From NCBI GenBank assembly GCA_903875215.1, contig CAIQVH010000021.1:1-64000 (forward strand): a DNA stretch of 64,000 nucleotides, given 5' to 3'. A model generated the notes under the pieces. That model was not told the DNA's origin and made no database searches. It saw nothing but the letters and a program-made list of their open reading frames with translations. The stretch is from an uncultured Anaerolineae bacterium (GTDB lineage: Bacteria > Chloroflexota > Anaerolineae > Anaerolineales > Villigracilaceae). Shown in pieces: positions 168 to 49,367 of this stretch; position 1 is the stretch's first letter, and each line of letters opens with the position of its first letter. The translations under genes were made by a program, and so were the position numbers.

Positions 168-290
168 GGCAGCCTTTTCTGAATCTCTCTAATTTTTTGT
201 ATTCAGGCCTTGGGGGAACCTGACTTGCGTCCTGATTATATTCCATAAGCCGGCAAAACCCAGGCGCGCCATTCTACCTAAAAAAGCGGC

Positions 291-296
291 TATAAT
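291..296 (+). promoter_or_regulatory. Probable -10 box for the polysaccharide exporter operon
   Basis: A perfect TATAAT lies 44 nt upstream of the ATG at 341, in the divergent intergenic region 168-340. No convincing -35 hexamer sits at the usual distance. A second TATAAT in the opposite orientation (235-240 on the plus strand) could serve the divergent dehydrogenase. The rest of the gap shows nothing else I recognise. Confidence 0.5.
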
Positions 297-340
297 ATGT
301 TTTCAATTTACCCAAACATCCCCACCAGCAGTGAGAAAAA

Positions 341-2511: not shown

Positions 2512-2528
2512 ACATTGCTGGGAGTATT

Positions 2529-3683: not shown

Positions 3684-3706
3684 TTAAGCAAATAGGGAAA
3701 GAATTT

Positions 3707-4432: not shown

Positions 4433-4528
4433 CGAAAAAATGTCGACCATATAATCGTTTCTAATTTACAATGGATGCTCAATGCGCCAGTTATTTTTTC
4501 AGACATCAAGTAGTACAAGCAGGTCTAC

Positions 4529-7134: not shown

Positions 7135-7169
7135 CCGTTCAACAATTATTTTTTCAAACAGGAAAAATT

Positions 7170-9077: not shown

Positions 9078-9152
9078 CCGCTGATTCCCTTCCAGCAAAG
9101 GCAATTGGCCCCACATGTCGCACATCTCGCCTGAACAATAAGAAATAATCCA

Positions 9153-9205
9153 TACCATGCCCGGTTGGCATATGTACCTAGACCAACCGGGCATGGTAGT
9201 TTTTT
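9153..9205 (+). terminator. Strong Rho-independent terminator after the first asnB
   Basis: A perfect 16-bp inverted repeat (9153-9168 with 9183-9198, 14-nt loop) is followed by six T residues at 9200-9205. It lies 76 nt downstream of the asnB stop and just before the next gene's ribosome-binding site. This also argues against any start for the next gene upstream of 9225. Confidence 0.85.
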
Positions 9206-9224
9206 CTGTAGAGGAAACCCGCGA

Positions 9225-10592
9225 ATGAATAATCCCCCTTCATCTGGATTAGAGATGAAACCTCGTATCTGTTTTTACAGCTTATATTGTTACCCGCTAT
9301 TTAATTCGGAATGTCAGGCCCCTTTTGGCGGCTGGGAGACCAGAATCTCGCTCATTGCGAAAGAATTGGCGCGGCGAGGCAATTTTGATGTAACCGTGAT
9401 CGTGGGGGATTATGGCCAGGCGCCAGTTGAATACCGGCAGGGGGTCAGGCTGTTGGTCTGGGTGGGCAGGAAGATGATTCCCGTGTCCGAAATAGACCCT
9501 CCTGCCCCGGGCGCCTGGTCGACAGCCGGTCTTGGCCGGCTTCAATCCGTTCGTTTTAATACAGGTGTTTTGGCACTAGCCAAACGGTTGCTGAGGAAAA
9601 TTCTGCACCCAGTCAAAGAACTGTTAATAGCCATTAAAAAAAATCGCGACACATATGCCGTTTTGGATCGATCGGGGCAGCATATTGTTTGGCGGGATGA
9701 GATCAAGATTTTGGATCTTGCGGACGCTGATCTTTATGTCGTGCCGGGCAATCATCATATGTCGGCGGTGATGGCCTTTTACTGCCGGGTACGGAAGAAA
9801 AAGTATGTCTTTCTCTCCGGCTCTGATTATGATTATTCACCAGATTATAAATTAAGCCCCAACGCCATTGATATCTACGGAGAGGCTTATTATGAAAAGG
9901 TCTTTGCCATTGAGGGCTCAGATTTGCATATTGTTCAAAGTCCGCAGCAAGCCAAGCTGCTCGAAGCCGGGTACGGTCGCAGCGGGGTTGTGATTCGCAA
10001 CCCCATTGATCTCTCCAGCTCCCGGCCGCGCTCATCCAACCCGGATACTATTTTATGGGTGGGAAAAACAGATGAGCGGGTCAAAAGGCCCTCCTGGTTT
10101 TTTAGCCTGGCGCGCCGGCTGCCCGAACAAAAGTTTGTCGCGATCATGAACAAATATGATGAGGAGAGTTTTGCTGCCTGCCTGGAAACAGCCCGCTCTT
10201 TACCAAATTTGACCCTGATCGAAAAAGTGCCTTTTGAAGAGGTGGAAAAATATTTTGCAGAGGCGCGTTTATTTGTGAATACCTCGGTGTTTGAGGGGTT
10301 TCCCAACACCTTTTTACAGGCCGCCAAATACGGCGTGCCCATTATTGCCTCAGACGTGGATCCGGCCGGGATGCTTTCACAGCATGGGTGCGGGGTTACA
10401 TGCGGCGGTGATTTCGAGATTTTGGTTCAAAGTGTCCAGCGCATCCTGGCGGATGAACGTCTTTACAGCGCAACCTGCCAGGCCGTCCTCGTTTATGTAA
10501 AAACCCAGCACGATAAAGAGCTTGTTATATCGCAATATGAAAGAGCGTTCAGGAACCTGCTGGATACGTCAGCCGGGAAAACCGAGGAGTAA
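9225..10592 (+). CDS. Glycosyltransferase family 4-like protein
   Basis: The 455-residue protein is a GT-B glycosyltransferase. Its C-terminal half has ILWVGKTDERVKRP, a donor-site region with VNTSVFEGFPNTFLQAAKYG (GT4 E-x7-E variant) and VPIIASDVDPAG. The N-terminal half contains GGWETRISLIAKELARRG, typical of acceptor-domain starts. The ATG at 9225 follows GAGGAAA and lies after the terminator; an in-frame upstream start would sit inside the hairpin. It is expected to work on the cytoplasmic face of the membrane, adding a sugar from a nucleotide donor. Donor identity is unknown. Confidence 0.85.
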   Translation: MNNPPSSGLEMKPRICFYSLYCYPLFNSECQAPFGGWETRISLIAKELARRGNFDVTVIVGDYGQAPVEYRQGVRLLVWVGRKMIPVSEIDPPAPGAWSTAGLGRLQSVRFNTGVLALAKRLLRKILHPVKELLIAIKKNRDTYAVLDRSGQHIVWRDEIKILDLADADLYVVPGNHHMSAVMAFYCRVRKKKYVFLSGSDYDYSPDYKLSPNAIDIYGEAYYEKVFAIEGSDLHIVQSPQQAKLLEAGYGRSGVVIRNPIDLSSSRPRSSNPDTILWVGKTDERVKRPSWFFSLARRLPEQKFVAIMNKYDEESFAACLETARSLPNLTLIEKVPFEEVEKYFAEARLFVNTSVFEGFPNTFLQAAKYGVPIIASDVDPAGMLSQHGCGVTCGGDFEILVQSVQRILADERLYSATCQAVLVYVKTQHDKELVISQYERAFRNLLDTSAGKTEE

Positions 10593-10731
10593 GCAGTAGC
10601 GAGCAGTTTATTTGTGAATAAGGCCGGCCAAATTGTCCGCTTGAGCGCCATTCACCGGGTTATTTACCCGCTCTCCGGCCAGGAATTTGATATGGGGTTG
10701 GGTAGGATCTGTTATTAGGAGGAAGGCATTG

Positions 10732-12171
10732 ATGATTACAAACTCGGAAACAGGCAAAGAGTATGCGGGGATCCGCAGCAGGCATTGGGATGAAGTCGCG
10801 CGGCGCTATCAAGTTCGACGCAATCTGGGCGGTGGATATCATCGGCGTTTGAAATAGGTTTATGGCAATTTGATCCCACCCAATTCAAGCGTGCTGGAGA
10901 TTGGCTGCGGGACCGGTGATTTATTGGCTTCCCTGCAACCCTCGCGGGCAGTCGGGGTTGATTTTTCTGCGAACATGCTGGAACAAGCCCGAGAGAAATA
11001 TCCCAGGTGTGAATTTGTTCTGGCGGATGCTCATGAACTCTGCCTGAATGAGACTTTTGATTTTGTGATTCTTTCCGACCTTATCAACGACCTTTGGGAT
11101 GTGCAGATAGTTTTTGAAGTTGCCCATCGTCATTGTCATGCCAATACGCGTTTGTTAATAAACTCATTCAGTCATCTTTGGCAGATACCTCTTTCAATAG
11201 CATCTGCCTTGGGTTTGGCAAAACCCAATTTGGAGCAAAACTGGCTGGACGTGGAGGAGATTTATAATCTGCTTTACCAGGCTGATTTTGATGTATTGCG
11301 TACATTTCCAGAGTTTTTCTGGCCACTTAATATCCCCTTTATAGAACCGCTATTCAATCGTGTCCTGGTAAGATTCTGGCCATTGACCTGGATGGCGCTG
11401 ACCAATTTTTTTGTTGCCCGACCGCATCTGAACTCTTCTGAAAACAACCCGGCTCCCATTGTTTCCGTCCTGGTTCCGGCCCGCAATGAAGAAGGGAATA
11501 TTCCGGAGATCTTCAAGCGGGTCCCCCGGATGGGTTCTCAGACTGAATTGGTATTTGTGGAAGGACACTCGCGCGACAATACTTACCAGGTAATTTGGGA
11601 TACCGTTGCCGCTCATCCGGAGGTCAACTGTGTTGTGCTCAAGCAAACGGGGGAAGGAAAAGGGGATGCCGTGCGCACCGGGTTTGCCGCCGCAAGCGGA
11701 GACATCCTGATGATCCTGGATGCAGACCTGACCGTTCCCCCGGAAGATCTGCCGCGGTTTTACCGAGCCCTGGTCAGCGGCAAAGGTGAGTTTATCAATG
11801 GGGTACGGTTGGTCTACCCGATGGAAAAACAAGCCATGCGTTTCATGAATTTGTTGGGGAATAAGTTTTTCAGCCTGGCATTCTCCTGGTTGCTTGGACA
11901 GCCGATCGCGGATACCTTATGCGGCACAAAAGTCTTATGGCGAAGCGACTATGAGCGCATTGCGGCGAACCGTTCCTACTTTGGCGATTTTGACCCATTT
12001 GGCGATTATGACCTGCTCTTTGGCGCAGCCCGTCTAAACCTGAAGATCGTAGACCTGCCCATTCGCTACCGGGAACGCAAATATGGCTCCACCAACATTC
12101 AACGCTGGAAACATGGCTGGCTATTAATTAAAATGGTTGCATTTGCAGCCCGCCAAATTAAGTTTGTCTAA
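10732..12171 (+). pseudogene. SAM methyltransferase-GT2 fusion interrupted by an in-frame TAG
   Basis: An ATG at 10732 with a strong AGGAGG at 10717-10722 opens 41 codons (EYAGIRSRHWDEVARRY) that stop at TAG 10855-10857. The same frame continues without a shift into a class I methyltransferase (VLEIGCGTGDLLASL, then a standard fold to about codon 240). A GT2 domain follows (VSVLVPARNEEGNIPE, ILMILDADLTVPPEDL), resembling dolichyl-phosphate mannosyltransferase. The residues before the TAG are the usual N-terminal helix of these methyltransferases, so one base change or sequencing error has split a single gene of about 480 codons. Rescue would need TAG readthrough or the TTG at 10870 with no visible ribosome-binding site. 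Whether the GT2 half is still made is unknown. Confidence 0.75.
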
Positions 12172-12193
12172 TTGCAAGAAAAAGGTATGTATT

Positions 12194-12937
12194 ATGTCTT
12201 TGTCACAGCGAGCTCGGAATGAAATTGAACATAGCAAGGGGCTTGCTGCTTTGGATACTGAATCAGTCTGGGGCTGGGGAATACCAGCTGGTCGTTTACG
12301 TGCTGAAAAACGATCTGCACTTATTATTGAAGGGGCCAATTTGATGGCGGGGCAACGGGTACTTGAGATTGGCTGTGGTACTGGGAATTTTACAGAAATA
12401 TTTGCCCGTACTGGCGCACAAATTGTCGCTGTGGACATCTCGCCAGACTTGTTGGAAAAAGCGCTGGCACGGGGTTTGCCTGCCGGGCAAGTTCAATTCA
12501 TCCAACAGCGCTTTGAAGATTGTGATGCAAATGGATCGTTTGATGCAGTGATTGGCTCGTCAATATTACATCATTTGGACATTCAACTCGCTTTTTCCAA
12601 AATATTTGATTTATTAAAACCGGGAGGCAGGTTGAGTTTTGGGGAACCCAACATGCTTAATCCCCAAGTTTTTCTGGAAAGAAGATTTTATTTTATTAAA
12701 CCCCTGTTCGGGTATGTATCTCCAGATGAAACTGCATTCTTAAGATGGTCACTTCGAACCCAAATGATGGATTTTGGATTTGAAAATGTGGAAATTAAGC
12801 CCTTGGATTGGCTCCATCCATTAGTGCCATCCGCGTTGATTGGTCTTGTAACCGGAGTAGAAAAACAACTTGAAAAAACACCTATTTTTCGTGAATTCGC
12901 GGGATCTCTTTACATACGTGCTCGCCGTCCGCTTTGA
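12194..12937 (+). CDS. Class I SAM-dependent methyltransferase
   Basis: This 247-residue protein has the canonical motif I VLEIGCGTGNFTEIFA, motif II IVAVDISPDLLEKA, and a post-motif region LLKPGGRLSFGEPNML. The fold is complete and soluble. It most likely methylates a locus sugar or lipid-linked intermediate, but the acceptor cannot be derived. The ATG at 12194 follows AAAGGTATG; an earlier in-frame start would overlap the preceding gene and lacks a ribosome-binding site. Base composition is slightly AT-richer than the downstream epimerase region. Confidence 0.85.
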   Translation: MSLSQRARNEIEHSKGLAALDTESVWGWGIPAGRLRAEKRSALIIEGANLMAGQRVLEIGCGTGNFTEIFARTGAQIVAVDISPDLLEKALARGLPAGQVQFIQQRFEDCDANGSFDAVIGSSILHHLDIQLAFSKIFDLLKPGGRLSFGEPNMLNPQVFLERRFYFIKPLFGYVSPDETAFLRWSLRTQMMDFGFENVEIKPLDWLHPLVPSALIGLVTGVEKQLEKTPIFREFAGSLYIRARRPL

Positions 12938-12964
12938 TGTTAAATTTTATCAGGTCAGGTATTA

Positions 12965-13744
12965 ATGTTAAAAAAATGGCTTGCACATCCACTCACGCGT
13001 AATCTTGATCTAGATGATCCTCGTGTGACAAAATTGAGGCAACAAGTGATTCGGCAGGATGCTTTTCTGTCTCAAATCTATGTGTCCTGGTATACCCTGC
13101 TTGGCAATTCGATCCCTCCCGGAGTTGGTCAGATTGTTGAACTCGGATCCGGAGCCGGGTTTTTATCTGAACATGTACCGGGGCTGATCACATCCGAGAT
13201 TTTTTTTCTACATGGCATGAGCCTCATCCTGGATGGACAAAAAATGCCGTTTGCAAAGGAGTCGCTTAAGGCAATTGCCATGACCAACGTTTTGCACCAT
13301 ATTCCAGCGCCGCGGCAATTTTTTTCTGAAGCCACTCGCGTCATACGGCCCGGGGGAGTGATCAGCATGATCGAGCCATGGGCTTCACCCTGGTCAAAGC
13401 TGATTTACACCTCGCTTCACCATGAGCCTTTCGACCCTCAATCCGATACCTGGGAATTCCCATCGAGTGGTCCGCTTTCTGGGGCCAACATGGCGCTGCC
13501 ATGGATCATGTTCCATCGCGATCGCGGTCTTTTCCAACAGGAGTTTCCAGGCTGGCGGGTTGAGCGCATCACGCCGCTGATGCCAATCGCCTACCTGCTA
13601 TCCGGCGGGGTTTCTTTGCGCCAGCTGATGCCCGGGTGGAGTTTTCGCGCCGTAGAGCGGTTGGAAGCTTTGTTCACCCCGCTCCTGCCGCACCGCCCGG
13701 CCATGTTCGCGCATATTTTGCTGGTCAAGAGCCCGGAGCCCTAG
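12965..13744 (+). CDS. Class I SAM-dependent methyltransferase
   Basis: The 259-residue protein has IVELGSGAGFLSEHVPG as motif I and MTNVLHHIPAPRQFFSEATRVIRPGG in the motif IV-VI region (SAM-dependent, Methyltransf_11-like). An EPWASPWSKLIYT stretch and a Trp/Pro-rich C-terminal part are unlike UbiE and suggest a specialised acceptor. It lies 27 nt after the previous methyltransferase, so the two are probably co-transcribed and may modify the same glycan. The downstream 114 nt contain a weak hairpin near 13769-13788, not adjacent to a T-run, so I do not call a terminator. Confidence 0.82.
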   Translation: MLKKWLAHPLTRNLDLDDPRVTKLRQQVIRQDAFLSQIYVSWYTLLGNSIPPGVGQIVELGSGAGFLSEHVPGLITSEIFFLHGMSLILDGQKMPFAKESLKAIAMTNVLHHIPAPRQFFSEATRVIRPGGVISMIEPWASPWSKLIYTSLHHEPFDPQSDTWEFPSSGPLSGANMALPWIMFHRDRGLFQQEFPGWRVERITPLMPIAYLLSGGVSLRQLMPGWSFRAVERLEALFTPLLPHRPAMFAHILLVKSPEP

Positions 13745-13858
13745 GCCCATTATTTTACTCATCCTGCACCGAGAGCGTCGGCTCTTGGCGCCAGGAGCGA
13801 TTTTTATCTGGTCCTGCGGTTCAGATTGAATCCATTCCCAACCCATGACGAGGCTAAT

Positions 13859-16381
13859 ATGTCAATACCGGATTTAAAAGTTCTGCGCAACCCCTGGATC
13901 AGGTCGCTCGGCCTGCTGGCATTGGCAATGATTTCGTACACGGTCTTCCTGGTCATTCCCCCGCCGCTCAGCACCACACGAATATTTCCTTACTTTTCTA
14001 TTCCAATCGCCATCCTGCTGGTCATCTTTTTTGGAGCGCTCTGGCAACAAAAGGGATATTTCTGGGAATGTATCGGTATCGTGGCGGTGATGGCATTATT
14101 TTCGTTTTCGTTGTCCTTCAAATGGCAGACATCTTTGTACGATGGCAACTTGATCGGTGGCTTGTTACCATGGTCGGACGCTTCCGGATATTTTAGTTGC
14201 GCGAATCAACTTCTTTACAGTGGAGAAATCAATATCTGGTGCGCCCGCCGCCCTCTTTTCTCTCTCCTGATGGCGGTGTTATTCCGTCTCACCAATATCA
14301 ATTTGCAGGTTTCCCTGGCAATCCTGGTGGCCATAAACGCCCTGGCTGTCTTCCTCGCCGCCCAGGAGATACGGCGCGCTGTTCAGCCTCTCTCTGCGGC
14401 AGTTTTTGTGATATTGGGCTTTTATTTTTACAGCACATATGCTGGCAAAGTTCTTACTGAAAACCTGGGCTTTGCCCTGGGCGCCCTTGCGATGGCTTTC
14501 CTGGTGCGAGGCATCCGCCTGACCTCCGAAAAACTGGTATTGGGCGGGGTGTTCCTGCTAGCCCTGGCGCTGAATGCCCGGGCGGGTGCTATGTTCATCC
14601 TGCCGTGCCTGGTGCTCTGGTTCACCCTGCATTTCCGCCACAAAAGACCTGTCTGGCTTCTATCCGTAGCCGGGTTGGGTGTCGTGGGGGTTGCCTTTGC
14701 CTTGAACCTGATGATGGTCAAGTCTTTTTCACAGGCAGGAGGCGTGCCTTTTTCAAATTATGCACACACCTTTTACGGCCTTGCTGCTGGCAACCGAGGC
14801 TGGACCCAGATCATGGCAGATCATCCTGCCGCCCCCGAAGCGGATTACCCGCGCCTTGCGCTCGAAAAATTCCGTGAAAACCCTGCCATGTTGCTCAAGG
14901 GCATTGCAGGGGCTTATCAAGACTATTTTCGGCCATCGTTTGGCGCGTTCAGTTTCTTAATTTCCACTTCAGCGAAGAATATGTTTTTCTGGCTGGTGAC
15001 TGGGCTGGCCCTTCTAATGGCGTTCGTCAGACGCGGGAACGGCTTGTACGGTCTGGCACTGGCAGGATTTGCCGGGATATTATTTTCTGTTGGGTTGGTG
15101 CCCCCTATTGATGCAGGAATGCGCGCCTACACTGCCACCATTCCGATGAGCAATTATGTGACCGCGCTGGGGGTTGCTGGGCTTTTCAGCTTCTGGCGCA
15201 AAACCACGCCAGACGAAACAGAACAGAAGCTAAATGAGGCCTCCCTCCTCACGCCGTTTGCCGTCCTTTTATGCTTTTCCCTGCTGGCAGGCCCCTTCCT
15301 GGTGCAGTCATCCCTTGCGCCGCTGAAACCTGCAACGCTGGCGGCTGGCTGTGCAGCCGGTCAATCTAAACTTTCCTTGTTAACAGGCAAGAACTCGACC
15401 ATCTATGTCGGTAATTTTTCACAGACCTATACTCCCATGGTCAACGCTGCCGATTTTGCTGATGCCATTAAGGGCAATCCGGGGGAATACCCAAGGCTGG
15501 ATGCGCTGCTTGGGAAGCTGGAAACCGGGGATCAGTTATCCGTTGGCTACGACCCCAACAAGGTATCGACCGCATTTTTAGTTTCCACAAAACAACCTGT
15601 GACAGATGGGATGGCCATTTATTGCGTCAGCCCCGCCCAGGATGAATGGTTGTTTAAAAATTATTTTTTCTATGTCAACAAAAGTGCCGAAAATAAGGAT
15701 CATTACATCCAAAGTGACATTGCGTTTACATGGATACAAAACCACCCATCCGTGGTTAAGCTAAAGTATGTGTATCTTGTTGCTTTTGTCTTCGTGCTCG
15801 TCGTCCTGACAGTGAAATTAATCGGAGTAAAACAACCGTCTTTGATAACTTATCTCTCTATCATTGCAGCCATACTTCTCCTCGTACAAGGTGTATTCAT
15901 GAATTTGTACACAACAGGGAAATTGTTTGCCCCATTTGGCAGGCAAAGAATTCTCCTGGATGCCAGGCAGGCCGTACCCGAACATGGCAACCCGTTTTTG
16001 CTTGATCTGGGAACCACATGGATGAATCAATCTGAGCTGGGCGCATCACCAGCAGTGGTTTTAGAAAACGGCAGCCCGTTGTCCTTACCTGATGTCGAGC
16101 GCCAAAAAATCAGGGACAAGGGTTATGGCCGCTACTTAGTTTGGAATGGAACCCTGTATTTCTCATCTTCTGATAATACAGATCCGCGGACGAATGGTCG
16201 CGATTATGAGATCGAATGGCCGCGGCCCATTCCCCTGGTTTGGCAGTGGGTTAGTTATGTGTTGGCTGTGGCGGGGGGCAGTGAGCTCATTGTCATCCGC
16301 CTTTATGGGTCGGGAATTGTGTCACAGGTCCGGCCAGTATCCACCAAAATAGCGGGTATTTTTAAAGGTAAAATGGCTTGA
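13859..16381 (+). CDS. Large multi-pass membrane protein, probable GT-C fold glycosyltransferase
   Basis: The 840-residue protein has about ten or more hydrophobic segments in the first 440 residues and two more around residues 625-685, separated by a polar, probably extracytoplasmic region. An early loop with WSDASGYFSCANQLLYSGE contains acidic residues where GT-C enzymes keep their catalytic Asp. Such proteins use lipid-linked sugars on the outer face of the membrane. No Wzy- or ligase-specific signature was recognised, so an O-antigen polymerase-like role is an alternative. The ATG at 13859 was preferred over one at 13826 because CGAGG lies 7 nt upstream. It is the largest protein in the glycan locus. 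Confidence 0.6.
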   Translation: MSIPDLKVLRNPWIRSLGLLALAMISYTVFLVIPPPLSTTRIFPYFSIPIAILLVIFFGALWQQKGYFWECIGIVAVMALFSFSLSFKWQTSLYDGNLIGGLLPWSDASGYFSCANQLLYSGEINIWCARRPLFSLLMAVLFRLTNINLQVSLAILVAINALAVFLAAQEIRRAVQPLSAAVFVILGFYFYSTYAGKVLTENLGFALGALAMAFLVRGIRLTSEKLVLGGVFLLALALNARAGAMFILPCLVLWFTLHFRHKRPVWLLSVAGLGVVGVAFALNLMMVKSFSQAGGVPFSNYAHTFYGLAAGNRGWTQIMADHPAAPEADYPRLALEKFRENPAMLLKGIAGAYQDYFRPSFGAFSFLISTSAKNMFFWLVTGLALLMAFVRRGNGLYGLALAGFAGILFSVGLVPPIDAGMRAYTATIPMSNYVTALGVAGLFSFWRKTTPDETEQKLNEASLLTPFAVLLCFSLLAGPFLVQSSLAPLKPATLAAGCAAGQSKLSLLTGKNSTIYVGNFSQTYTPMVNAADFADAIKGNPGEYPRLDALLGKLETGDQLSVGYDPNKVSTAFLVSTKQPVTDGMAIYCVSPAQDEWLFKNYFFYVNKSAENKDHYIQSDIAFTWIQNHPSVVKLKYVYLVAFVFVLVVLTVKLIGVKQPSLITYLSIIAAILLLVQGVFMNLYTTGKLFAPFGRQRILLDARQAVPEHGNPFLLDLGTTWMNQSELGASPAVVLENGSPLSLPDVERQKIRDKGYGRYLVWNGTLYFSSSDNTDPRTNGRDYEIEWPRPIPLVWQWVSYVLAVAGGSELIVIRLYGSGIVSQVRPVSTKIAGIFKGKMA

Positions 16382-16741
16382 TTACAAAAGATATCAGCAG
16401 TTGTCAACGCAAACTCAATTTTCAAGCCGGATACAACTACCCTTGAAGTAGCCTGATTTCTTATCGCATCATTTATCAATGAGGATGCCAGCCACGATAC
16501 TTCTTTTTGCCGGGTGAAAGAGGCTCAATACTAAACCTACCCCATATACGGATCTTGGAAAACCAGCGCGCGAAAGGATCATGACTGGTTTTTAAATATT
16601 CACCCACATTCAGCAGTGGCAACTTGAAAATCCTGAATATGGCTAAATATAGAGAGACTGCACACAAGGATGTGGAATGGGAGATCTTTCATAAATTATT
16701 TCCCCTGGTCGGTTGTTGAGCCGTTTTATTGCTGAGGACAC
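16382..16741 (+). other. 360-bp intergenic stretch, no confident gene
   Basis: The gap between the membrane protein and the second asnB has stop codons in every plus frame. The minus strand has a 63-codon open frame (16476-16667) that lacks a recognisable ribosome-binding site or family motif. It may be the remnant of a lost gene. No terminator or convincing promoter was found, apart from a purine-rich TGAGGA just before the ATG at 16742. Confidence 0.4.
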
Positions 16742-18643
16742 ATGTGTGGAATTTGTGGAATATGGAATCAACCTGATCAGGTTGCCGTGGGAAAAATGGT
16801 GGCCGCCATGAAACATCGCGGCCCAGATGACCATGGGGTCTTTACCGATGAATGTGTTAGTCTGGGAATGGCCCGTCTGGCCATTATTGATTTAAACCCA
16901 ACCGGCCACCAGCCAATGTCCAACCCTGAAAAGACCATTTGGATTGTTTATAACGGGGAAGTTTACAATTTTCAAAGCGAACGCAAGCTGCTGGAAAAAT
17001 TGGGGTACCAGTTTATTTCCAATTCCGATACAGAGGTCATCCTTCGGCTTTACCAGCATTATGGCGATGATTTCCTGGTGCGTTTGCGCGGGATGTTTGC
17101 CCTGGCGATTTATGATCGCCGAGCAGGGGATGGGAAAGAAAGATTGCTGCTCGCACGCGATCAAATGGGAATTAAGCCCCTGCTTTATTCGATGAATGAG
17201 AATACGTTGATTTTTGCATCCGAAATCAAGGCGCTGCTCGCCAGTGGCTTGCTGCAGAAGGCAGTCGATCCGGAGGCTCTGCGCCTATTGCTGACCTTCG
17301 GATCGATTTATCAACCTTATACGATGATCAAAAATATAAAAATGCTCCTGCCAGGCCATCGCTTAATCATCGCAAATGGAACTATGCGTTTGGAGAGATA
17401 TTGGTCTCTCCAAACCAACCGGAGACCTGAGATCGCGGCGTTGTCATATCGAGAACAAGTCGAAGCCGTGGCGGAAGCGTTAAAAGAATCGGTGCAACTA
17501 CAAATGATAAGCGACGTACCCTTGGGCGCATTCCTGAGTGGCGGAGTTGATTCATCCATCCTGGTAGCCATGATGGCGCGTCAGTCCACTCAAAAAATAA
17601 AAACTTTTTCGGTGGGTTTTGAAGGCGAGGGCGCGGCAATTGATGAGAGTAACGATGCGCGCCGCACAGCTGAATTCCTGGGTACGGAACATCATCATGT
17701 GCTCGTGCGTGGTACAGATGTGCGCGAGCGCATCTTCCATATCGCCTCCGCGCTCGACCAGCCATCGGTGGATGGAGTCAATGCTTATTTTGTATCCTGG
17801 GCGGCGCGGCAGGGCATGACGGTGGCCATCTCTGGCACAGGGGGTGATGAATGGTTTGCCGGGTATCCCTGGTTTCTCAATATGGCGGCTGGATCTACCC
17901 AGCTGGATTGGAAAAGATATCTTTCTGCTTTTGCCCGGCTGCCTATCTTCAACGGATTGTCATTTACTCCCTTAAGGAACAAACTTCATCGGGCCAGGGC
18001 GATGACCAATTTTCTCGACCAATATGCCCAGCAGTACCAGATTTTTGGTTCACCGGGGGCTGAGGCTTTGCTTGAACATAAAATCCATCACGGCCGCATG
18101 GAAAGTTTGGATATACAGGCTAACGATGAACTCCACGACGGATCGGTTCTTGAACGGGTGACGGCCTTATGTTTACGAGGCTACACCACCAACCAGCTCT
18201 TGCGCGATATTGATGCAGTTTCCATGTCACACTCTCTGGAAGTGCGCGTGCCTTATCTCGACACTGAAATTGCCAATCTGGCGCTTTCCCTGCCCGATCA
18301 GACCAAATTGCATCCATCCGCATCCTCGGGGCTGCAGAATACTTATCGGTCAACAGGCGCAAAACGTATTTTGATTGATGCCGGGCGCGATTTGCTGCCC
18401 AAGGATTTCGATATCCAACCCAAGCGTGGCTTTGCCATGCCTTTTGAGCGCTGGCTTGCCGGACCGCTCAAGGATGTTTTCGAGTATGCCCTTGCAGACG
18501 ATACCGTAAAACGGCGTGGCTGGTTCAACAGCCGTGAAACGGGCTTAATCCGGCAACGATTTTGCTCAGGGGCACTGCATTGGTCTCAGCCCTGGCTGTT
18601 GATGATGACAGAACTCTGGGCTCAGCAGGTTTTGGATGGGTAG
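16742..18643 (+). CDS. asnB: AsnB-type glutamine-dependent amidotransferase / asparagine synthase (second copy)
   Basis: This second, clearly divergent AsnB has 633 residues. MCGICGIW gives Cys2 as glutaminase nucleophile, then KHRGPDDHG and YNGEVYNF. The synthetase domain has LSGGVDSSILVAMM and the pyrophosphate-loop region ISGTGGDEWFAGY. The first copy has TGDGGDENFAGY at the same site, so the two may use different acceptors. Two AsnB paralogues in one glycan locus suggest two amidation steps, or one on the glycan and one on aspartate. The following gene starts 5 nt after its stop, indicating co-transcription. Confidence 0.92.
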   Translation: MCGICGIWNQPDQVAVGKMVAAMKHRGPDDHGVFTDECVSLGMARLAIIDLNPTGHQPMSNPEKTIWIVYNGEVYNFQSERKLLEKLGYQFISNSDTEVILRLYQHYGDDFLVRLRGMFALAIYDRRAGDGKERLLLARDQMGIKPLLYSMNENTLIFASEIKALLASGLLQKAVDPEALRLLLTFGSIYQPYTMIKNIKMLLPGHRLIIANGTMRLERYWSLQTNRRPEIAALSYREQVEAVAEALKESVQLQMISDVPLGAFLSGGVDSSILVAMMARQSTQKIKTFSVGFEGEGAAIDESNDARRTAEFLGTEHHHVLVRGTDVRERIFHIASALDQPSVDGVNAYFVSWAARQGMTVAISGTGGDEWFAGYPWFLNMAAGSTQLDWKRYLSAFARLPIFNGLSFTPLRNKLHRARAMTNFLDQYAQQYQIFGSPGAEALLEHKIHHGRMESLDIQANDELHDGSVLERVTALCLRGYTTNQLLRDIDAVSMSHSLEVRVPYLDTEIANLALSLPDQTKLHPSASSGLQNTYRSTGAKRILIDAGRDLLPKDFDIQPKRGFAMPFERWLAGPLKDVFEYALADDTVKRRGWFNSRETGLIRQRFCSGALHWSQPWLLMMTELWAQQVLDG

Positions 18644-18648
18644 ACTCT

Positions 18649-19878
18649 ATGAAAAACTGGTTTGGTTATGACTCTTTTCCCAATCAGCCTAAGATCCTTT
18701 TCATTGGGCTGGCGCAAAGCAGCCACACGCATGCCTGGATAGATTTGCTTGCAGACGCCCCGCTCAATGTGCGGTTGTTTGCCATGCCAACCGGCGCGCC
18801 TCCTGAAACCTGGCCTGTTAAGACGTATGTGAGTTGTACAGTCTCCGGCAATAATTCAAAGACCCGGCAGTTTCTTTATCGTGGCTTTTTGGGGAAACCA
18901 ATCTCACTGATTGATAAAATTGCATCCCGGCTCAAAATTCCACGGATCCAAAACCCTGAATGCTGGCTTGCTGCGCTGATTCGCCAGTGGCGCCCCGATA
19001 TTATCCACACCCTGGGAATGTTCGATGAACAAGGTGGATTGTTCTACTTCCAGGTGCGGGAAAAATATGGGTTGCAAAACATAGGCAAGTGGATTCTGCA
19101 AACGCGGGGAGGCTCAGATCTGGCTCTGCGCCGTCACAACCCGGAAATGACCGCCATGATCCAGCAGATGTTTTCATCTTGCGATGAAATCATCAGCGAC
19201 AATACCGCCAATATTCTTTATGCCCGGGCATATGGGGTTCATGCTGATAAATTTGCCACCCTTGTCCCGATTCCAGGGACGGGCGGCATGGATATTAACC
19301 AGTTGTCAGAAGGTACCGTTTTTCCTTCGCAACGTGAGCGCATCATCTTGTGGCCGAAAGCTTATGAAAGTCAATGGTCAAAGGCTTTACCGGTTTTGGA
19401 AGCCATAAAGATGGCATGGAATAAAATCCAACCCTGTGAGATTTATTTCCTGGCAATGACGCCTGATGTAAAAGAGTGGTTTCTTACCTTGCCGGATCCC
19501 ATTCGGCAGCATTGCCACACCGCCGAACGGATTGCCCGCTCAGAAGTATTATCGCTTATGAAGCGTTCCCGCGTGCTATTGATCCCATCGCTGATCGATG
19601 GGGTTCCCAACAGTCTCTATGAAGCCATGGCGAGTGGAACTTTCCCAATCGTCTCCCCGCTGGACACCATCCTGCCGGTTGTCAGCGAGGAGCTTAATGT
19701 TCTCTTTGCCCGAAATTTATACCCTGACGAAATCTGCGCTGCGTTAATTCGCGCGATGAATGATGATAAACTGGTTGACCAGGCAGCGGAAAATAACCTG
19801 GTTTTGGTTAAAAAAATCGCCGATAGGGCCACGATTAAAGAAAAAGTGGTGAAATATTATTTGGAATTATCGAGATGA
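18649..19878 (+). CDS. Glycosyltransferase family 4-like protein
   Basis: The 409-residue protein is of GT-B type. The N-terminal half has ILFIGLAQSSHTHAW and RPDIIHTLGMFDEQG. The C-terminal half has a donor site ALLIPSLIDGVPNSLYEAMASG-like stretch (SLIDGVPNSLYEAMASG) with the two conserved Glu/Asp positions of GT4. The ATG at 18649 lies 5 nt after the asnB stop; an in-frame start at 18562 lies inside asnB and is rejected. The stop overlaps the next gene (ATGATG at 19875-19880). Predicted to be cytoplasmic and part of glycan assembly. Donor and acceptor are unknown. Confidence 0.85.
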   Translation: MKNWFGYDSFPNQPKILFIGLAQSSHTHAWIDLLADAPLNVRLFAMPTGAPPETWPVKTYVSCTVSGNNSKTRQFLYRGFLGKPISLIDKIASRLKIPRIQNPECWLAALIRQWRPDIIHTLGMFDEQGGLFYFQVREKYGLQNIGKWILQTRGGSDLALRRHNPEMTAMIQQMFSSCDEIISDNTANILYARAYGVHADKFATLVPIPGTGGMDINQLSEGTVFPSQRERIILWPKAYESQWSKALPVLEAIKMAWNKIQPCEIYFLAMTPDVKEWFLTLPDPIRQHCHTAERIARSEVLSLMKRSRVLLIPSLIDGVPNSLYEAMASGTFPIVSPLDTILPVVSEELNVLFARNLYPDEICAALIRAMNDDKLVDQAAENNLVLVKKIADRATIKEKVVKYYLELSR

Positions 19879-20345
19879 TGAAATTTGCTCTGCTTTCTCA
19901 TGTTCTTCCACCCTCTCCATCAGGCCAGGCAGTCATGTTGCACCGAATCCTCACGGGTATTGACCCTGTCAGTTATTACCTGATTGCCAGCCAATCCCAA
20001 TCTATCGCAGCAGATTTGTTTGCTCTGAAAAGCCCGGTGGTCACGCTGCCCTCTGAACCGGCGTTGGGTTTCAGGCCTCGGCGGGTTCGAGCCCTTATCA
20101 ATCTGCTGCCGGGCGTGATTGTGCGCGCAATCAACATTTTAGCGCTGCTGCGCCAGGAACCAGTACAAGTTCTTGTGGCATACACCGGCAATATCCTGGA
20201 TATTCCTGCAGCTTTTCTGGCCAGCCGACAGGCCCGTATCTCGTTCTTTGCTTATATCTTCGATGATTATGCTTATCCATGGCTCGAACAAGGTATGATT
20301 AAGCAAAAAGTAGTCAGCATGTATCAGGAAATACTGGCGAAGTAA
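19875..20345 (+). pseudogene. Truncated glycosyltransferase, N-terminal half only
   Basis: The 156-residue product starts like a GT-B acceptor domain: MKFALLSHVLPPSPSGQAVM, then a middle part with VLVAYTGNILDIPAAFLA and FFAYIFDDYAYPWLEQG. It stops at the point where intact relatives have another 200 residues holding the donor site. It overlaps the preceding gene's stop, so translation initiation is intact. Immediately after the stop, GC content rises and a new gene set begins (SDR reductase). I infer a deletion or recombination joint around 20345; an isolated acceptor domain would not be catalytic. An unrecognised short protein is a less likely alternative. Confidence 0.65.
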
Positions 20346-44327: not shown

Positions 44328-47300
44328 ATGTCCTTCGTCCACCTGCACACCCACACCGTTTATTCCCTGCTCGATGGCTTCTCGAACATCAAGAAGCTGG
44401 TCAATCGCGCCAAAGAGATGGAGATGCCCGCCCTGGCCATCACCGACCATGGCACCATGTTTGGCGTGGTGGAGTTTTACAACGCCGCCAAAGATGCCGG
44501 CATCAAGCCCATCATCGGGGTGGAGACCTACATGGCCGCCCGCCGCATGAGCGATCGCGACAGCAAGCTGGATAAAAAATCCAGCCATTTGCTGCTTCTG
44601 GCCGAAAACGAAACCGGCTACAAAAACCTTCTCAAGCTGACCTCCGCCGCCCAGATGGACGGCTTTTATTACTACCCGCGCATTGACCACGAACTGCTGG
44701 CCGAACACTCCGCCGGGCTGATCGCCACCTCGGGCTGCATGTCTGCCGAAATCCCGCGCGACCTGTTGGAAGAACGCCCCGAAGAAGCTGTGCGGCGCAT
44801 GAACTGGTACTACGACGTCTTCGGCCCCGACCGCTTCTTTGTCGAATTACAACAGCACAACATCGCCGAAATGGTTGACCTGAACCGCAAACTGGTCGAA
44901 CTCGGCGCGCGCTACTCGGCCAAATTCGTTGCCACCAACGACGTGCACTACGTCAACGCCGACGACGCCGCCTACCAGGATGTCCTGCTCGCCATCCAGA
45001 CCGGCAAACTGCTCAGCGACCCGGACCGAATGCGCTACGAAAGCCCGACCTTCTACCTGCGCTCGCCGCAGGAAATGAGCCGCCTGTTCGCCGAAATCCC
45101 CGAATCCCTCACCAACACCGTCGAAATCGCCCAGCGCTGCAATGTAGACCTGGGCTTCAAGGGCTATCACATTCCCGATTTCCCCGTCCCGGCTGGCTAC
45201 ACTGCCCAGACCTACCTGGCCTTTCTCTGCGAACAAGGCCTCGAAAAGCGCTACGGCGCGCGGAAAAATGACAGCAACATCCGCGAGCGGCTCAACTTTG
45301 AATTGGATGTCATCCACACGATGGGCTTCGACTCCTACTTCCTCATCGTCTGGGACCTGTGCCGTTTCGCCGCCGAAAGCGGAATCTGGTACAACACCCG
45401 CGGCTCAGGCGCCGGCTCGCTGGTGGCCTACTCCCTGTTCATCACCCTCGTCGACCCGATCCACCACCAGCTGCTCTTCGAGCGCTTCCTCAACCCGGGC
45501 CGCATCTCCATGCCCGATATTGACCTCGACTTCCGCGACGACCGCCGCGCCGAAATGCTGGCCTACGCCGCCCAAAAATACGGCAATGACCGGGTGGCAC
45601 AAATCATCACATTTGGCACCATGGCCGCCCGCGGCGCCCTGCGTGACGTGGCGCGCGTCATGGACATCCCCATCCCCGAAGTGGACAAGGTCGCCAAGCT
45701 CGTCCCCAATATCCCAGGCAAACCCATGTCGCTCTCCGAGGCTCTCGAACAGGTGGACGATTTCAAGGCCGCCTACGAGACCGATCCAAAGGTCAGGCAA
45801 TTGGTCGATACCGCCATCCACATGGAAGGCACCGTCCGCAACGCCGGGACGCACGCCGCCGGCCTGGTTATTTCAGATAAATCCATCACCGAATACCTGC
45901 CCATTCACCGGCCCACCTCCGGCTCCGAAGAATCCCCCGTCAAAACCGTCACCCAGTTCGAGATGGGCATCCTCGACAGCATGGGCATGCTCAAGGTGGA
46001 TTTTCTCGGCCTTTCCACCCTCACCGTCATGGCCCGCGCCTGCGATATGATCAAACAGCGCCACGGCATCGAATACGACCTGAACAACATCCCGCTCGAC
46101 GACCCGGCCACCTTCAAATTGCTCGGCGAAGGCAAGACGGCTGGCGTATTCCAGCTTGAAGGTTGCCTGAGCGGCGAGACCTATATCGGTCACCGCACCA
46201 TCAAGGAACTCTACGCAGATTTCAAAGCCCGCGAATCCGCTGGGACACTCGGCGGACGCGAATTGCTCCGCACGCAGTCTTGCTATGTGGATGAAGGCCG
46301 CTTTTTCCCGAATATGATCAACAGGGTGGTTTATAGCGGCAGTAAACCGGTTTACCGTCTGATCGCCGCAAACAACACCTGGATTAAAGCCACTGCCGAT
46401 CATCACTTTTTCACCCAACGCGGCTGGGTCAAACTCGGCGACCTTGACCCAAAAACTGATACCCTGCTGTTCAAAACCGGCACCAGCCGCGCCGGGAGAC
46501 TGTGCGTCGAGTGCGGCGAACCGCTTAAAACTGCTGCAACCCGCTCGAAACACTGTAAAAAATGCTCCGCGCATCTTTCATCCAACCCCAGCCGCCCCGA
46601 AGTGCGCGAAAAAATTGCGCAAAGTCGCACCGGGCAGTCATCCTGGAATAAAGGTCTGACTGTTGAAACGGCCAGAGACACCCTTTGGATAAAGAATCTC
46701 AGCGCCTACAATGCCACGCAAAAAGGTGTTGCGCTGGCAGAGCGCAATGGCGAAGAACGCGCCGCCGAAGTGCGCGCCAAACTCTCCCTGCGTTCTGCTG
46801 GTAAAAACAATCCGATGTATGGCCGCCCGCCCAAAGAAACCAAAACCTACACCAAATCCGGCTACCGCGAAGACTTGGGCCATTACGTCCGCTCCTTGTG
46901 GGAGGCCGATATGGCGCGCGTCTTCCGCCATTTTGGGCTGGAATACCAGTACGAACCCGAAACCTTCGAGTTAAGCCGTCAGGATCAGACAACCCTGACC
47001 TATACGCCCGATTTCTACATCCCCGAACAGGATACTTTTTACGAAATCAAAGGCTGGATGGATAAAGCCAGCGCGGAGAAAATTGCCCTGTTCCAGGAAC
47101 AGTATCCGCAGCGCAAGTTGGTTGTCATCGACAAAACCCTTTTCGCCGAATTCCAGGTGCAATACGCCGACCTGGTTCAATGGGAATGCCCGCAATTCCC
47201 GCAAAACAGCGAATGGGTCAGCATCAGGGCAATTGAATTGGTCGGCGAGGAAGAAACCTACGATATCCAGATGCAGGCGCCGGGGAATAACTTCGTCGCC

Positions 47301-49367
47301 AACGGCTTTATCGTCCACAACAGCGGTATGACCCGCTGGGTGGTCGAGATGAAACCCAGAAACCTGGATAACATCATCGCCATGGTGGCGCTCTACCGCC
47401 CCGGCCCGATGGACTTCATCCCCAGCTACATCAAACGCATGCACGGCCAGGAACCGATCGAATACCGCCATCCCTCCCTCGAGCCGATCTTTCGCGACAC
47501 CTACGGCATTCCCGTCTACCAGGAACAGATCATGCGCGCCTCGGTCGAAATCGGCGGCTTCACCCGCTCCGAATCAGACGACCTGCGCAAAGCCATCTCC
47601 AAAAAACTGGCCGACAAAATCGCCAAAAACAAGGAAAAATTCATCAAAGGCGCCTCCGAGCGCGTCATGGACAAGGCCACCGCCACCGCCATCTTCGAAG
47701 ACTGGGAACAGTTCGCGCGTTACGGGTTCAATAAGAGCCATGCCGCCGACTACGGCCTCGTCTCCGTCCAGACCGCCTTCCTGAAAGCGCACTACCCTGC
47801 CGAATACATGTCAGCGTTGATGTCGGTCTTCAAAGACTCCAGCGAAAAAGTCTCGCTCTACATTGCCGAAGCCAAATCGCTGGGCATCGATGTGCTCCGG
47901 CCCGATATCAACCACTCCCTGCTCGATTTCAGCATCGAAGATCCGATCGATGAAAAAGGCCGGAAACGCACCGCCATCCGCTTTGGCATGAGCGCGGTCA
48001 AAAACGTCGGCGAAGGGCCCGTAAATTTTATCCTGGCAGGTCGCCGCGACAAAGGCCCCGATAGCCCCTTCCGCGATCTGACCGATCTGTCCCAGCGGAT
48101 TGACCTGAAAGCCGCCGGCAAACGCTCGCTGGAATGTCTGATCAAAGTGGGTGCCCTGGACAGTTTTGGTGAACGCGCTGCCCTGCTTGCCAGTCTCGAT
48201 CAACTCGTCGCCGCCAGCGCCAGCCACTTCAGAGCCGCCGAAAGTGGACAAATGTCACTTTTCGGCGCCGCCACCGGAGTCCAGGCCCAGAGCATCAGCC
48301 TGCCCAACCTGAAAACCGACAAAAAAGAAGCCCTGGCCTGGGAACGCGAGTTGATCGGGCTTTACCTCTCCGACCATCCCCTTAAAGCCTACGAAAACTA
48401 CCTGGCCCAGGGTTTCATCACCAACTCGCTCACCATCAACGAGCTCGCCAACCAGCAGCCTGTCCGCGTTGCCGGTCTGGTAGTCTCCTCGCGCCCCTTC
48501 AAAACCAAAACCGACAAACTGATGGGTTTCGTCACCCTGGAAGACATGACTGGCAACCTCGAACTGGTCATCTTCCCCAAAACCTGGGAAAAATACCGCG
48601 CGCTCTGCGAAGAAGGCAAAGTCATCCTGGCTGTTGGAAAAGTGGATGCCGCTACCACCCCGCCCAAGATTCTCGTCGATGAGATCCGTACCGACTTCAC
48701 CATGATCGTTGCCGCAGATCTGGAGCCGGAGACGCTGGCCCAGCCCGAGCCGCCTCACCCGCCTCAGACCGTGTTCAACCGCCCCGTCCCTTCCCGGCCA
48801 CCCACCCCCCCGCGCCAGATCACCGAACCCCGACCCGCGCCGGTCGTCGAGCCCAATCCTGTCCCTGCGCCATCACCCAGCTTCGAGGATGACATGCCCC
48901 CCGAACCGGAATTCCCGGACGATTGGCATCTGGATGAACCCTCCGCAGGCTACCAGGCCAGCCCGCCCGCCACACCGATGGACGATCTGCTGACCGCCGA
49001 ACGCTTCGAACCGCCGCGCGTCGAAGCCGTGGTGCCGAACCCTACAGGTTCCCAGCTGCCCGCAGCCCTGCCGCCCCAGGTCGTGGTTGAGAAACAGGAT
49101 GATGCCCAGAAAGCGCGCATGCTCACCATCACCCTGCGCCCCTCCACTGACCCGGAGCGTGATCGCCGCCGGATTAAGAATATCTACTTTATCCTGATGT
49201 CTCAGCCGGGTAAAGACCGCTTCCAATTCCAGATCTTTGAAGGCGGCAAAGGCCACCTGATTGACTTCCCCAACGATACCACCCGTATTTCAGCTGAAAT
49301 GCTTGCCCGGCTGAAGAAGCTCATCGACGAAGAGAGCTGGCGGATTGAAGAAATCACCTTCCAGTAA
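44328..49367 (+). CDS. dnaE: DNA polymerase III alpha subunit, interrupted by an intein
   Basis: This 1679-residue precursor has the replicative polymerase plan: PHP domain (VHLHTHTVYSLLDG at the start), palm acidic residues in PDIDLDF (Asp399, Asp401) and KVDFLG (Asp558), HhH/fingers (YGFNKSHAADYG), an OB fold (VRVAGLVVSSRPFKTKTD, about residue 1380), a Pro-rich linker (about 1473-1541) and a C-terminal domain. An intein fills residues 613-998. Without it the enzyme is 1293 residues, near the family norm. The precursor must be spliced, since the insert splits the conserved LEG-SGM motif. Good upstream spacing from a purine-rich ribosome-binding site; the next hairpin terminates it. Confidence 0.95.
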   Translation: MSFVHLHTHTVYSLLDGFSNIKKLVNRAKEMEMPALAITDHGTMFGVVEFYNAAKDAGIKPIIGVETYMAARRMSDRDSKLDKKSSHLLLLAENETGYKNLLKLTSAAQMDGFYYYPRIDHELLAEHSAGLIATSGCMSAEIPRDLLEERPEEAVRRMNWYYDVFGPDRFFVELQQHNIAEMVDLNRKLVELGARYSAKFVATNDVHYVNADDAAYQDVLLAIQTGKLLSDPDRMRYESPTFYLRSPQEMSRLFAEIPESLTNTVEIAQRCNVDLGFKGYHIPDFPVPAGYTAQTYLAFLCEQGLEKRYGARKNDSNIRERLNFELDVIHTMGFDSYFLIVWDLCRFAAESGIWYNTRGSGAGSLVAYSLFITLVDPIHHQLLFERFLNPGRISMPDIDLDFRDDRRAEMLAYAAQKYGNDRVAQIITFGTMAARGALRDVARVMDIPIPEVDKVAKLVPNIPGKPMSLSEALEQVDDFKAAYETDPKVRQLVDTAIHMEGTVRNAGTHAAGLVISDKSITEYLPIHRPTSGSEESPVKTVTQFEMGILDSMGMLKVDFLGLSTLTVMARACDMIKQRHGIEYDLNNIPLDDPATFKLLGEGKTAGVFQLEGCLSGETYIGHRTIKELYADFKARESAGTLGGRELLRTQSCYVDEGRFFPNMINRVVYSGSKPVYRLIAANNTWIKATADHHFFTQRGWVKLGDLDPKTDTLLFKTGTSRAGRLCVECGEPLKTAATRSKHCKKCSAHLSSNPSRPEVREKIAQSRTGQSSWNKGLTVETARDTLWIKNLSAYNATQKGVALAERNGEERAAEVRAKLSLRSAGKNNPMYGRPPKETKTYTKSGYREDLGHYVRSLWEADMARVFRHFGLEYQYEPETFELSRQDQTTLTYTPDFYIPEQDTFYEIKGWMDKASAEKIALFQEQYPQRKLVVIDKTLFAEFQVQYADLVQWECPQFPQNSEWVSIRAIELVGEEETYDIQMQAPGNNFVANGFIVHNSGMTRWVVEMKPRNLDNIIAMVALYRPGPMDFIPSYIKRMHGQEPIEYRHPSLEPIFRDTYGIPVYQEQIMRASVEIGGFTRSESDDLRKAISKKLADKIAKNKEKFIKGASERVMDKATATAIFEDWEQFARYGFNKSHAADYGLVSVQTAFLKAHYPAEYMSALMSVFKDSSEKVSLYIAEAKSLGIDVLRPDINHSLLDFSIEDPIDEKGRKRTAIRFGMSAVKNVGEGPVNFILAGRRDKGPDSPFRDLTDLSQRIDLKAAGKRSLECLIKVGALDSFGERAALLASLDQLVAASASHFRAAESGQMSLFGAATGVQAQSISLPNLKTDKKEALAWERELIGLYLSDHPLKAYENYLAQGFITNSLTINELANQQPVRVAGLVVSSRPFKTKTDKLMGFVTLEDMTGNLELVIFPKTWEKYRALCEEGKVILAVGKVDAATTPPKILVDEIRTDFTMIVAADLEPETLAQPEPPHPPQTVFNRPVPSRPPTPPRQITEPRPAPVVEPNPVPAPSPSFEDDMPPEPEFPDDWHLDEPSAGYQASPPATPMDDLLTAERFEPPRVEAVVPNPTGSQLPAALPPQVVVEKQDDAQKARMLTITLRPSTDPERDRRRIKNIYFILMSQPGKDRFQFQIFEGGKGHLIDFPNDTTRISAEMLARLKKLIDEESWRIEEITFQ
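46164..47321 (+). other. DnaE intein with PD-(D/E)XK-type homing endonuclease region
   Basis: The insert is residues 613-998 of the precursor (386 residues), placed between FQLEG and SGM of the DnaE palm. Splicing residues are Cys1 (CLSGETYIG), the block-B TxxH (ATADHHFFTQRGW, His80), and the C-terminal FVANGFIVHN with Asn386, followed by Ser as +1. Between the splicing blocks are CVEC/CKKC (Cys114, 117, 131, 134), a half NUMOD3-like WNKGLT, NUMOD3-like KNNPMYGRPPKETK (214-227), and a nuclease core: Glu247 in RSLWEADMARV, Asp283 in YTPDFYI, Glu294-x-Lys296 in FYEIKGW. No LAGLIDADG or HNH motif is present. Splicing residues look intact. Confidence 0.93.

Follow-up and report, generated by a model that had tools for sequence, protein, structure and literature searches.

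The DNA analysed is a window of 64,000 nucleotides (contig CAIQVH010000021.1, assembly GCA_903875215.1) from an uncultured Anaerolineae bacterium of the Villigracilaceae, and the subject is an intein with an endonuclease segment that lies within its dnaE gene. The dnaE frame, taken from the list of open reading frames (ORFs), spans 44328-49367 on the forward strand (1679 amino acids (aa), intein included), and all parts of it given below are on that strand. The N-extein (codons 1-612; 44328-46163) ends in FQLEG and is followed by the intein (codons 613-998; 46164-47321), which runs for 386 aa from Cys1 to His-Asn386, and then by the C-extein (47322-49367), which begins with the +1 Ser (codon AGC) and continues with GM. 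DnaE profiles matched both extein parts, the upstream one over codons 1-612, and the intein frame was open throughout. An earlier reading of the letters by a model (the sequence-only reading) had placed the insert at exactly these boundaries, with FQLEG before and SGM after it, and the residues it named (E247, D283, E294, K296, both CxxC pairs, NNPMYG, and the terminal His-Asn with the +1 Ser) were all located at the intein positions given for them. G+C content was 54% in the insert vs 59% in the extein, and third-position G+C 65% vs 77%.

The insert is bounded by two splicing (HINT) parts. The N-terminal part (aa 1-104; 46164-46475), delimited by profiles and predicted structure, contains block B (T77-A-D-H80), and the C-terminal part (aa 349-386; 47208-47321), delimited by the intein_Cterm profile and predicted structure, ends in FVANGFIVHN. 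Between them lie a zinc-ribbon-like element of the form CxxC-x13-CxxC (aa 114-134; 46503-46565; CVEC at 114-117, CKKC at 131-134), a NUMOD3 DNA-binding module ending in NNPMYG (aa 202-220; 46767-46823; PF07460, 33.6 bits over a cut-off of 20.4, E-value (E) 3.7e-8), and a PD-(D/E)XK nuclease core (aa 232-341; 46857-47186) that is T7 endonuclease I-like by profiles and predicted fold. In the core, E247 is the first acidic residue (46902-46904) and falls within a predicted helix (245-256), D283 belongs to TPDF (47010-47012), and E294-I-K296 belongs to YEIKGW (47043-47051).

To find relatives, a profile of two sequences was run against the genome contigs of 84,980 species, a pattern-based scan that sees part of what exists. 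At least 19 loci were recovered, all uninterrupted inteins with dnaE-like flanks: five from Chloroflexota, one from Acidobacteria, one from Gammaproteobacteria, eleven of Patescibacteria type and one titled 'bacterium'. Two more were found on an IMG/VR contig classed as viral (L082) and in a plasmid dnaE of Miltoncostaea oceani (WP_217924764.1), and the 21 relatives together with the window gave 22 inteins of the same build at the same DnaE site. With Cys1 marking one boundary and Asn|Ser the other, two insertion registers exactly one codon apart could be read: FQxE(G/S)|SGM in the eight members from Chloroflexota, Acidobacteria and Gammaproteobacteria, and FQ(L/F)E|SxGM in the other 14 (Patescibacteria-type, Miltoncostaea and IMG/VR loci). 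The site was unbroken, as FQ(L/V/M)E-x-x-GM, in the 28 intein-free relatives that were read (60 searched), and uninterrupted in 10 of 10 congeners, where the sequence-only reading had proposed to look for intein-free dnaE. Its statement that such inteins are rare agrees with the samples taken, each of which counts the query carrier: of 400 genomes sampled from the order six had the full segment, and all of these belong to the window's family; it was present in 3 of 301 genomes of the phylum, and in 2 of 286 genomes of the phylum of one Patescibacteria-type genome.

Further inteins were seen in some of these dnaE genes. In the same-family dnaE L002/L067 (G014), a second intein of LAGLIDADG type by eye was located at YGFNK|SH in L002, and breaks near that place were seen in several relatives; its splicing domain is distantly related to that of the window (E about 1e-15 to 1e-11). 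The dnaE of L082 holds a second intein, HNH-type by eye, beside the SFNKSH codons, and that of L069 holds one after YGI. Three of the seven ORFs flanking the L082 dnaE matched PHROG families at E<=0.001 (unknown function, primase-like and exonuclease-like), and no structural gene was established among the seven. Stretch 163-410 of the exonuclease-like ORF (9414-10709; PDDEXK_1) matched terminase, primase and helicase-loader PHROGs alike and is perhaps a further intein.

The Pfam Intein_splicing profile matched the window intein at 52.7 bits (cut-off 35.8; E 5.4e-14), and Cys1, T77-x-x-H80, His385-Asn386 and the +1 Ser are the sequence features of a class 1 intein, as which it had already been classified. 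C1, H80, D367, H385 and N386 were invariant in 20 of 20 aligned members, and all 22 inteins had Cys1, His-Asn and the +1 Ser and were free of stops. AlphaFold confidence for the splicing parts was mostly high, and Foldseek retrieved solved inteins. The genome (98.64% complete) contained one full-length polC/dnaE-type match, which is the intein-bearing dnaE; another such match, on another contig, scored 34 bits over profile positions 3-71, below cut-off. The dnaE insert was the only match to the Pfam splicing domain in the genome at E<=0.01. Because the sole full-length dnaE found carries the insert, the intein presumably splices out of the DnaE precursor.

The nuclease segment was compared with solved proteins by searching the segment profile against PDB sequences. 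Four T7 endonuclease I sequences were returned (E 4.9e-6 to 2.2e-4), and the other rows at E<=0.1 were two ribosomal S20 proteins (0.093-0.097). In the alignments W-E247 was paired with L-E of T7 endonuclease I, TPDF with TPDF and YEIKG with VETKG, and the E/D/E-x-K spacings were 36 and 11 in the intein vs 35 and 10 in the T7 enzyme, whose catalytic residues are E20, D55, E65 and K67. One deposited T7 endonuclease I sequence departs from wild type at the E294 column and another at the K296 column, as would be expected if E294 and K296 are catalytic. The Pfam model Phage_endo_I (PF05367) matched every one of the 20 members at E<=0.1 (lowest E 2.1e-7) and exceeded its cut-off of 29.1 bits in four of them (L073, 29.4; L074, 30.4; L077, 30.2; L079, 31.1), and NUMOD3 matched 17 of 20 at E<=0.1, 15 of them over cut-off. 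The PHROG family 'Holliday junction resolvase' matched the window intein at E 3.5e-18, and several endonuclease PHROG families matched it too; further Pfam matches, below cut-off, were to DUF1064 (E 0.0036) and to zinc ribbons (DZR, E 0.0099). All 33 aligned cores (22 from inteins, 11 free-standing) retained E, D, E and K, and all 22 inteins had the two CxxC pairs; an apparent x17 Cys spacing in L080 was an artefact of the greedy pattern, and the alignment gives the same four cysteines. The PD-(D/E)XK, NUMOD3 and zinc-element assignments of the sequence-only reading hold, and the profile matches together with the residues kept in 21 full-length relatives go beyond a chance resemblance.

That reading had seen neither a LAGLIDADG nor an HNH nuclease, and the profile search bore it out: 16 Pfam families had matches at E<=0.1 among the 20 members, none of them LAGLIDADG, HNH or GIY-YIG, and for the window intein no LAGLIDADG or HNH profile was among the Pfam matches listed at E<=10. 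Inteins that look to be of those types by eye do occur at another dnaE site in relatives, but given these profile results the chance that an ordinary LAGLIDADG or HNH intein was misread here is negligible. The earlier comparison with Vsr-like enzymes fared differently from the PD-(D/E)XK assignment that it accompanied. The EDxHD (Vsr/DUF559-like) homing endonucleases are known from group I introns and metagenomic split-intein loci and carry His-Asp at the third motif. No match to the Vsr or DUF559 Pfam models was obtained in 20 members at E<=0.1, where Phage_endo_I matched all of them, and the third motif was E-x-K, not His-Asp, in 33 of 33 cores. By sequence, the nearest solved relative of the nuclease is phage T7 endonuclease I, not Vsr.

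Predicted structures were single-chain models. In the AlphaFold model the core consisted of a helix (245-256), four strands (268-271, 277-280, 284-286 and 291-295), a helix (301-313) and a strand (318-322), with block values of the predicted local distance difference test of 79-95. The order of helix, strands, helix and strand is that of the PD-(D/E)XK superfamily, in which the first helix bears an acidic residue, a strand bears D and the following one E-x-K, and the four catalytic-type residues lie on the expected elements, so that the core and active site anticipated by the sequence-only reading are present in the prediction. T7 endonuclease I, a structure-selective enzyme that forms a domain-swapped dimer, ranked first and second when the segment was searched with Foldseek. 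It was not among the 50 VIA-align entries listed, an absence that is no evidence and is probably due to its domain swap; I-Ssp6803I was likewise in none of the matches listed by the PDB profile search, Foldseek or VIA-align, and its absence too is no evidence. Neighbours in VIA-align were a mitoribosomal protein (Z 8.7), TnsA (Z 7.7), Bax1 (Z 7.2), the catalytic domain of I-Bth0305I (Z 7.0 over 78 residues, root-mean-square deviation 3.2) and Vsr (Z 6.3 over 89 residues, root-mean-square deviation 3.6). The last two would suit membership of the EDxHD family, but TnsA and Bax1 score as high as I-Bth0305I, so this neighbourhood is informative at the level of the superfamily, not of the family, and with the profile and motif results above such membership is highly improbable. 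The Vsr/EDxHD, LAGLIDADG and HNH readings were set aside on the absence of profile matches, the E-x-K motif and these superfamily-level structural neighbours.

Mobility was examined in trees of exteins and inteins. Two loci with only 137-139 residues upstream (L064, L078) were excluded from the extein tree. In that tree the window DnaE was grouped with five intein-free relatives (support 97/98), and a single clade of five Chloroflexota carriers was rejected (p 6.7e-142). The inteins of the Chloroflexota, by contrast, fell into one group of six (100/99). Rejection of the clade cannot alone separate gain from repeated loss; the ten intein-free congeners favour gain. Across phyla, intein identity was 52.6% and extein identity 39.0% between the window and the Acidobacteria locus, and 53.2% and 40.1% between the window and the Gammaproteobacteria locus; overall, intein identity exceeded extein identity in 120 of 231 pairs. 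The two loci from Acidobacteria and Gammaproteobacteria come from metagenome bins, with DnaE proteins that fall together on long branches, and may be mis-binned.

Anatomy, homology, conservation, sporadic distribution and predicted fold are the observed basis for reading the insert as a mobile class-1-type intein of dnaE that homes with a nuclease of the phage endonuclease I lineage, and we consider this very probable. Cutting, site specificity and homing are predicted from sequence. In the proposed mechanism, Cys1, the block B His, the terminal His-Asn and the +1 Ser would remove the intein from the precursor and leave functional DnaE. The homing endonuclease between the splicing halves would combine the zinc-ribbon-like element, a helical linker with NUMOD3, and a core from the T7 endonuclease I branch that would cut at a site recognised through NUMOD3 and the zinc element. 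Intein-free dnaE alleles would be cut near the FQLE-x-x-GM codons, and repair from an intein-bearing copy would insert the intein into the cut dnaE.

Several observations weigh against this account of a mobile intein with an endonuclease I-type nuclease. The window segment matched Phage_endo_I (23.1-24.0 bits, E 6e-5) under the Pfam cut-off (24.0 vs 29.1 bits), and the NCBIfam group I intron endonuclease model TIGR01453 gave a weak match to the NUMOD-like stretch (aa 170-228; E 0.005-0.011). Foldseek E-values to T7 endonuclease I were weak (0.006-0.035), with poor rigid superposition, and an R2 retrotransposon protein that looks unrelated ranked third. Cross-phylum incongruence was mixed: the intein data reject Patescibacteria-type plus Acidobacteria/Gammaproteobacteria inteins as one clade (p 2.6e-5), but the extein data are compatible with the Chloroflexota and the Acidobacteria/Gammaproteobacteria pair together forming one side of a branch (p 0.66). 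The proportion of synonymous differences (pS) in the Chloroflexota inteins was about 0.7-0.9, near saturation, and the extein value was no higher (0.64); no recent transfer is therefore visible among the sampled carriers. A conversion tract was sought beside the insertion and none was found, the shared +1 AGC codon alone being of the kind that would fit one. Since T7 endonuclease I is structure-selective and acts as a swapped dimer, site-specific cutting by the intein core is also to be regarded as putative.

A nuclease that acts on junctions or forks and promotes recombination at dnaE, making no site-specific double-strand break, would accord with the nearest characterised relative being a Holliday junction resolvase. 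NUMOD3 is a DNA-recognition module of known homing enzymes, according to the available text of PMC3943268, and all 22 inteins occupy one DnaE insertion site in two registers one codon apart; such a purely structure-selective role is improbable. In homing, the intein nuclease may combine sequence recognition with junction-type cutting.

Selective constraint was estimated from the ratio of nonsynonymous to synonymous proportions (pN/pS) in 15 Chloroflexota pairs. Values were 0.152 for the N-terminal splicing part, 0.324 for the zinc element, 0.207 for the linker with NUMOD3, 0.152 for the nuclease core, 0.108 for the C-terminal splicing part and 0.198 for the extein. Because synonymous sites are nearly saturated (in the nuclease, only 1 of the 15 pairs gave a finite corrected dS), these values are informative as a ranking only, and in it the catalytic core is level with the N-terminal splicing part. 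These results bear on the possibility that the nuclease is catalytically dead, or homing lost, and that the intein is kept since its splicing keeps DnaE alive, as the lack of visible recent transfer or of a conversion tract would allow. Against it stand the retention of catalytic and zinc residues in 22 of 22 inteins, the constraint on the core, and the failure of a HINT-N profile to reveal any nuclease-free version of the intein in 400 genomes of the order: the six matches below E 1e-38, which are the rows of the profile themselves, were nuclease-bearing inteins, and the next (E 1.2e-15) was an intein at another DnaE site. We regard a dead nuclease as unlikely. The sequence-only reading had called all the residues intact, which they are; the activity it thought possible is backed by residue conservation and by this constraint.

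Among free-standing relatives of the nuclease, the viral ones came from IMG/VR contigs (L083, with 47% identity in the core, and L084-L087), phage G (gp28), a halovirus and an Agrobacterium phage; others lie on Natrinema and Pusillimonas plasmids, and one Patescibacteria-type genome has such a relative as a second gene (L090). The best BFVD matches to the predicted segment were a siphovirus 'Endonuclease I' (E 1.4e-12) and phage G Gp28 (E 1.1e-11). Two of the IMG/VR genes (L085, L086) lie among tRNA genes, and all 28 Rfam matches there were tRNAs. HVTV-1 gene 37 (L110), named 'replication factor C small subunit' in one record, aligns with the endonuclease I-like nucleases and keeps all four catalytic-type residues.

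A first viral scan gave one splicing-domain relative and no more. The whole-intein profile retrieved 76 viral loci, and searching these with the nuclease-segment profile gave six ORFs at E<=0.01: one on the L082 contig, L175, and four that look free-standing, spread over three contigs. L175 (IMG/VR) is a terminase intein; its linker and NUMOD3 are like those of the window intein, but its core matches HNH weakly. The frame of L175 closes behind the HNH part, and its C-terminal splicing part is found in a different open frame. With a NUMOD3 linker joined to an HNH-like core, recognition and cutting parts seem to have been exchanged. A single origin of the intein nucleases was not rejected by the approximately unbiased (AU) test (p 0.197), with which one capture of the nuclease by an intein is compatible, though not demonstrated; the free tree needs five label changes and has many long branches. 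Most likely, the module came from free-standing phage endonuclease I-type genes, with capture proceeding in that direction. A wider proposal, that a T7 endonuclease I lineage became a distinct class of intein homing endonuclease across phyla and in an apparently viral dnaE, with its site shifting by one codon, is put forward tentatively, as falling somewhat short of probable.

Many weaker Chloroflexota matches aligned with the core only. In five of 12 such loci the core could be read (L094, L096, L103, L105, L106); in all five E-(L/I/M)-T replaces E-x-K, and on this ground they were not counted as homing nucleases; their core-only domain is possibly not a nuclease. In some of them an apparent hypoxanthine phosphoribosyltransferase start follows the core, by eye.

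Elsewhere in the window, positions 1-20000 had a lower G+C content (0.40-0.59 per kb) than the rest (0.54-0.68). Nine of ten ORFs scanned there matched surface-polysaccharide-type Pfam families (an ABC transporter with a Wzt C-domain, FkbM methyltransferase, DegT aminotransferase, two asparagine synthases and glycosyltransferases), and an 851-aa ORF at 13826-16381 had no Pfam match at E<=0.001.

LAGLIDADG is the usual intein nuclease according to the available text of PMC7765530 and PMC5050341, and other homing endonuclease families are listed in reviews, as far as their accessible parts go (PMC3943268, PMC7765530). No intein with this nuclease is described in the accessible text of the literature searched, whose coverage leaves out several central homing-endonuclease and intein papers, nor in the available portions of PMC11270868, PMC1564403, PMC9403480, PMC10448857 and PMC3653736. 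An intein family with a resolvase-type nuclease would, if true, add a nuclease class to inteins and show modular exchange of splicing domains and homing nucleases. The intein also offers a predicted enzyme that is intact, conserved and testable. It is also relevant to the question of whether inteins are seeded by free-standing nucleases of phages, because a similar build occurs in separate phage genes and one viral-classed contig holds the intein in its dnaE.

Among known systems, T7 endonuclease I (PF05367; PDB 1m0d, 2pfj, 3cae) has the same PD-(D/E)XK core, the same E/D/E-x-K order at spacings of 35/10 vs 36/11 in the intein, and the shared TPDF and (V/Y)E-x-KG motifs; it differs in being a junction resolvase whose solved chains of 129-149 residues have no zinc element, NUMOD3 or splicing domain. 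The free-standing phage genes (phage G gp28, L083-L086 and BFVD A0A8S5VCX7) resemble the intein segment in core residues, in N-terminal CxxC pairs and NUMOD-like stretches (several of them, by eye), and in predicted folds that align over most of the segment, but are separate genes outside inteins, two of them among tRNA genes. Other DnaE inteins, LAGLIDADG- or HNH-type by eye, share the splicing domain, with distant kin at a second site in the same order, and differ in having an unrelated nuclease and other insertion sites, e.g. YGFNK|SH. The EDxHD enzyme I-Bth0305I is set apart by its third motif and by the lack of any family-level profile match of the intein. It does share the restriction-endonuclease-like fold and has separate DNA-binding parts, as described in the available text of PMC3943268. 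I-Ssp6803I, a group I intron enzyme set beside the intein by description only, likewise puts the PD-(D/E)XK superfamily to use in homing, according to the accessible parts of PMC3943268 and PMC1995217.

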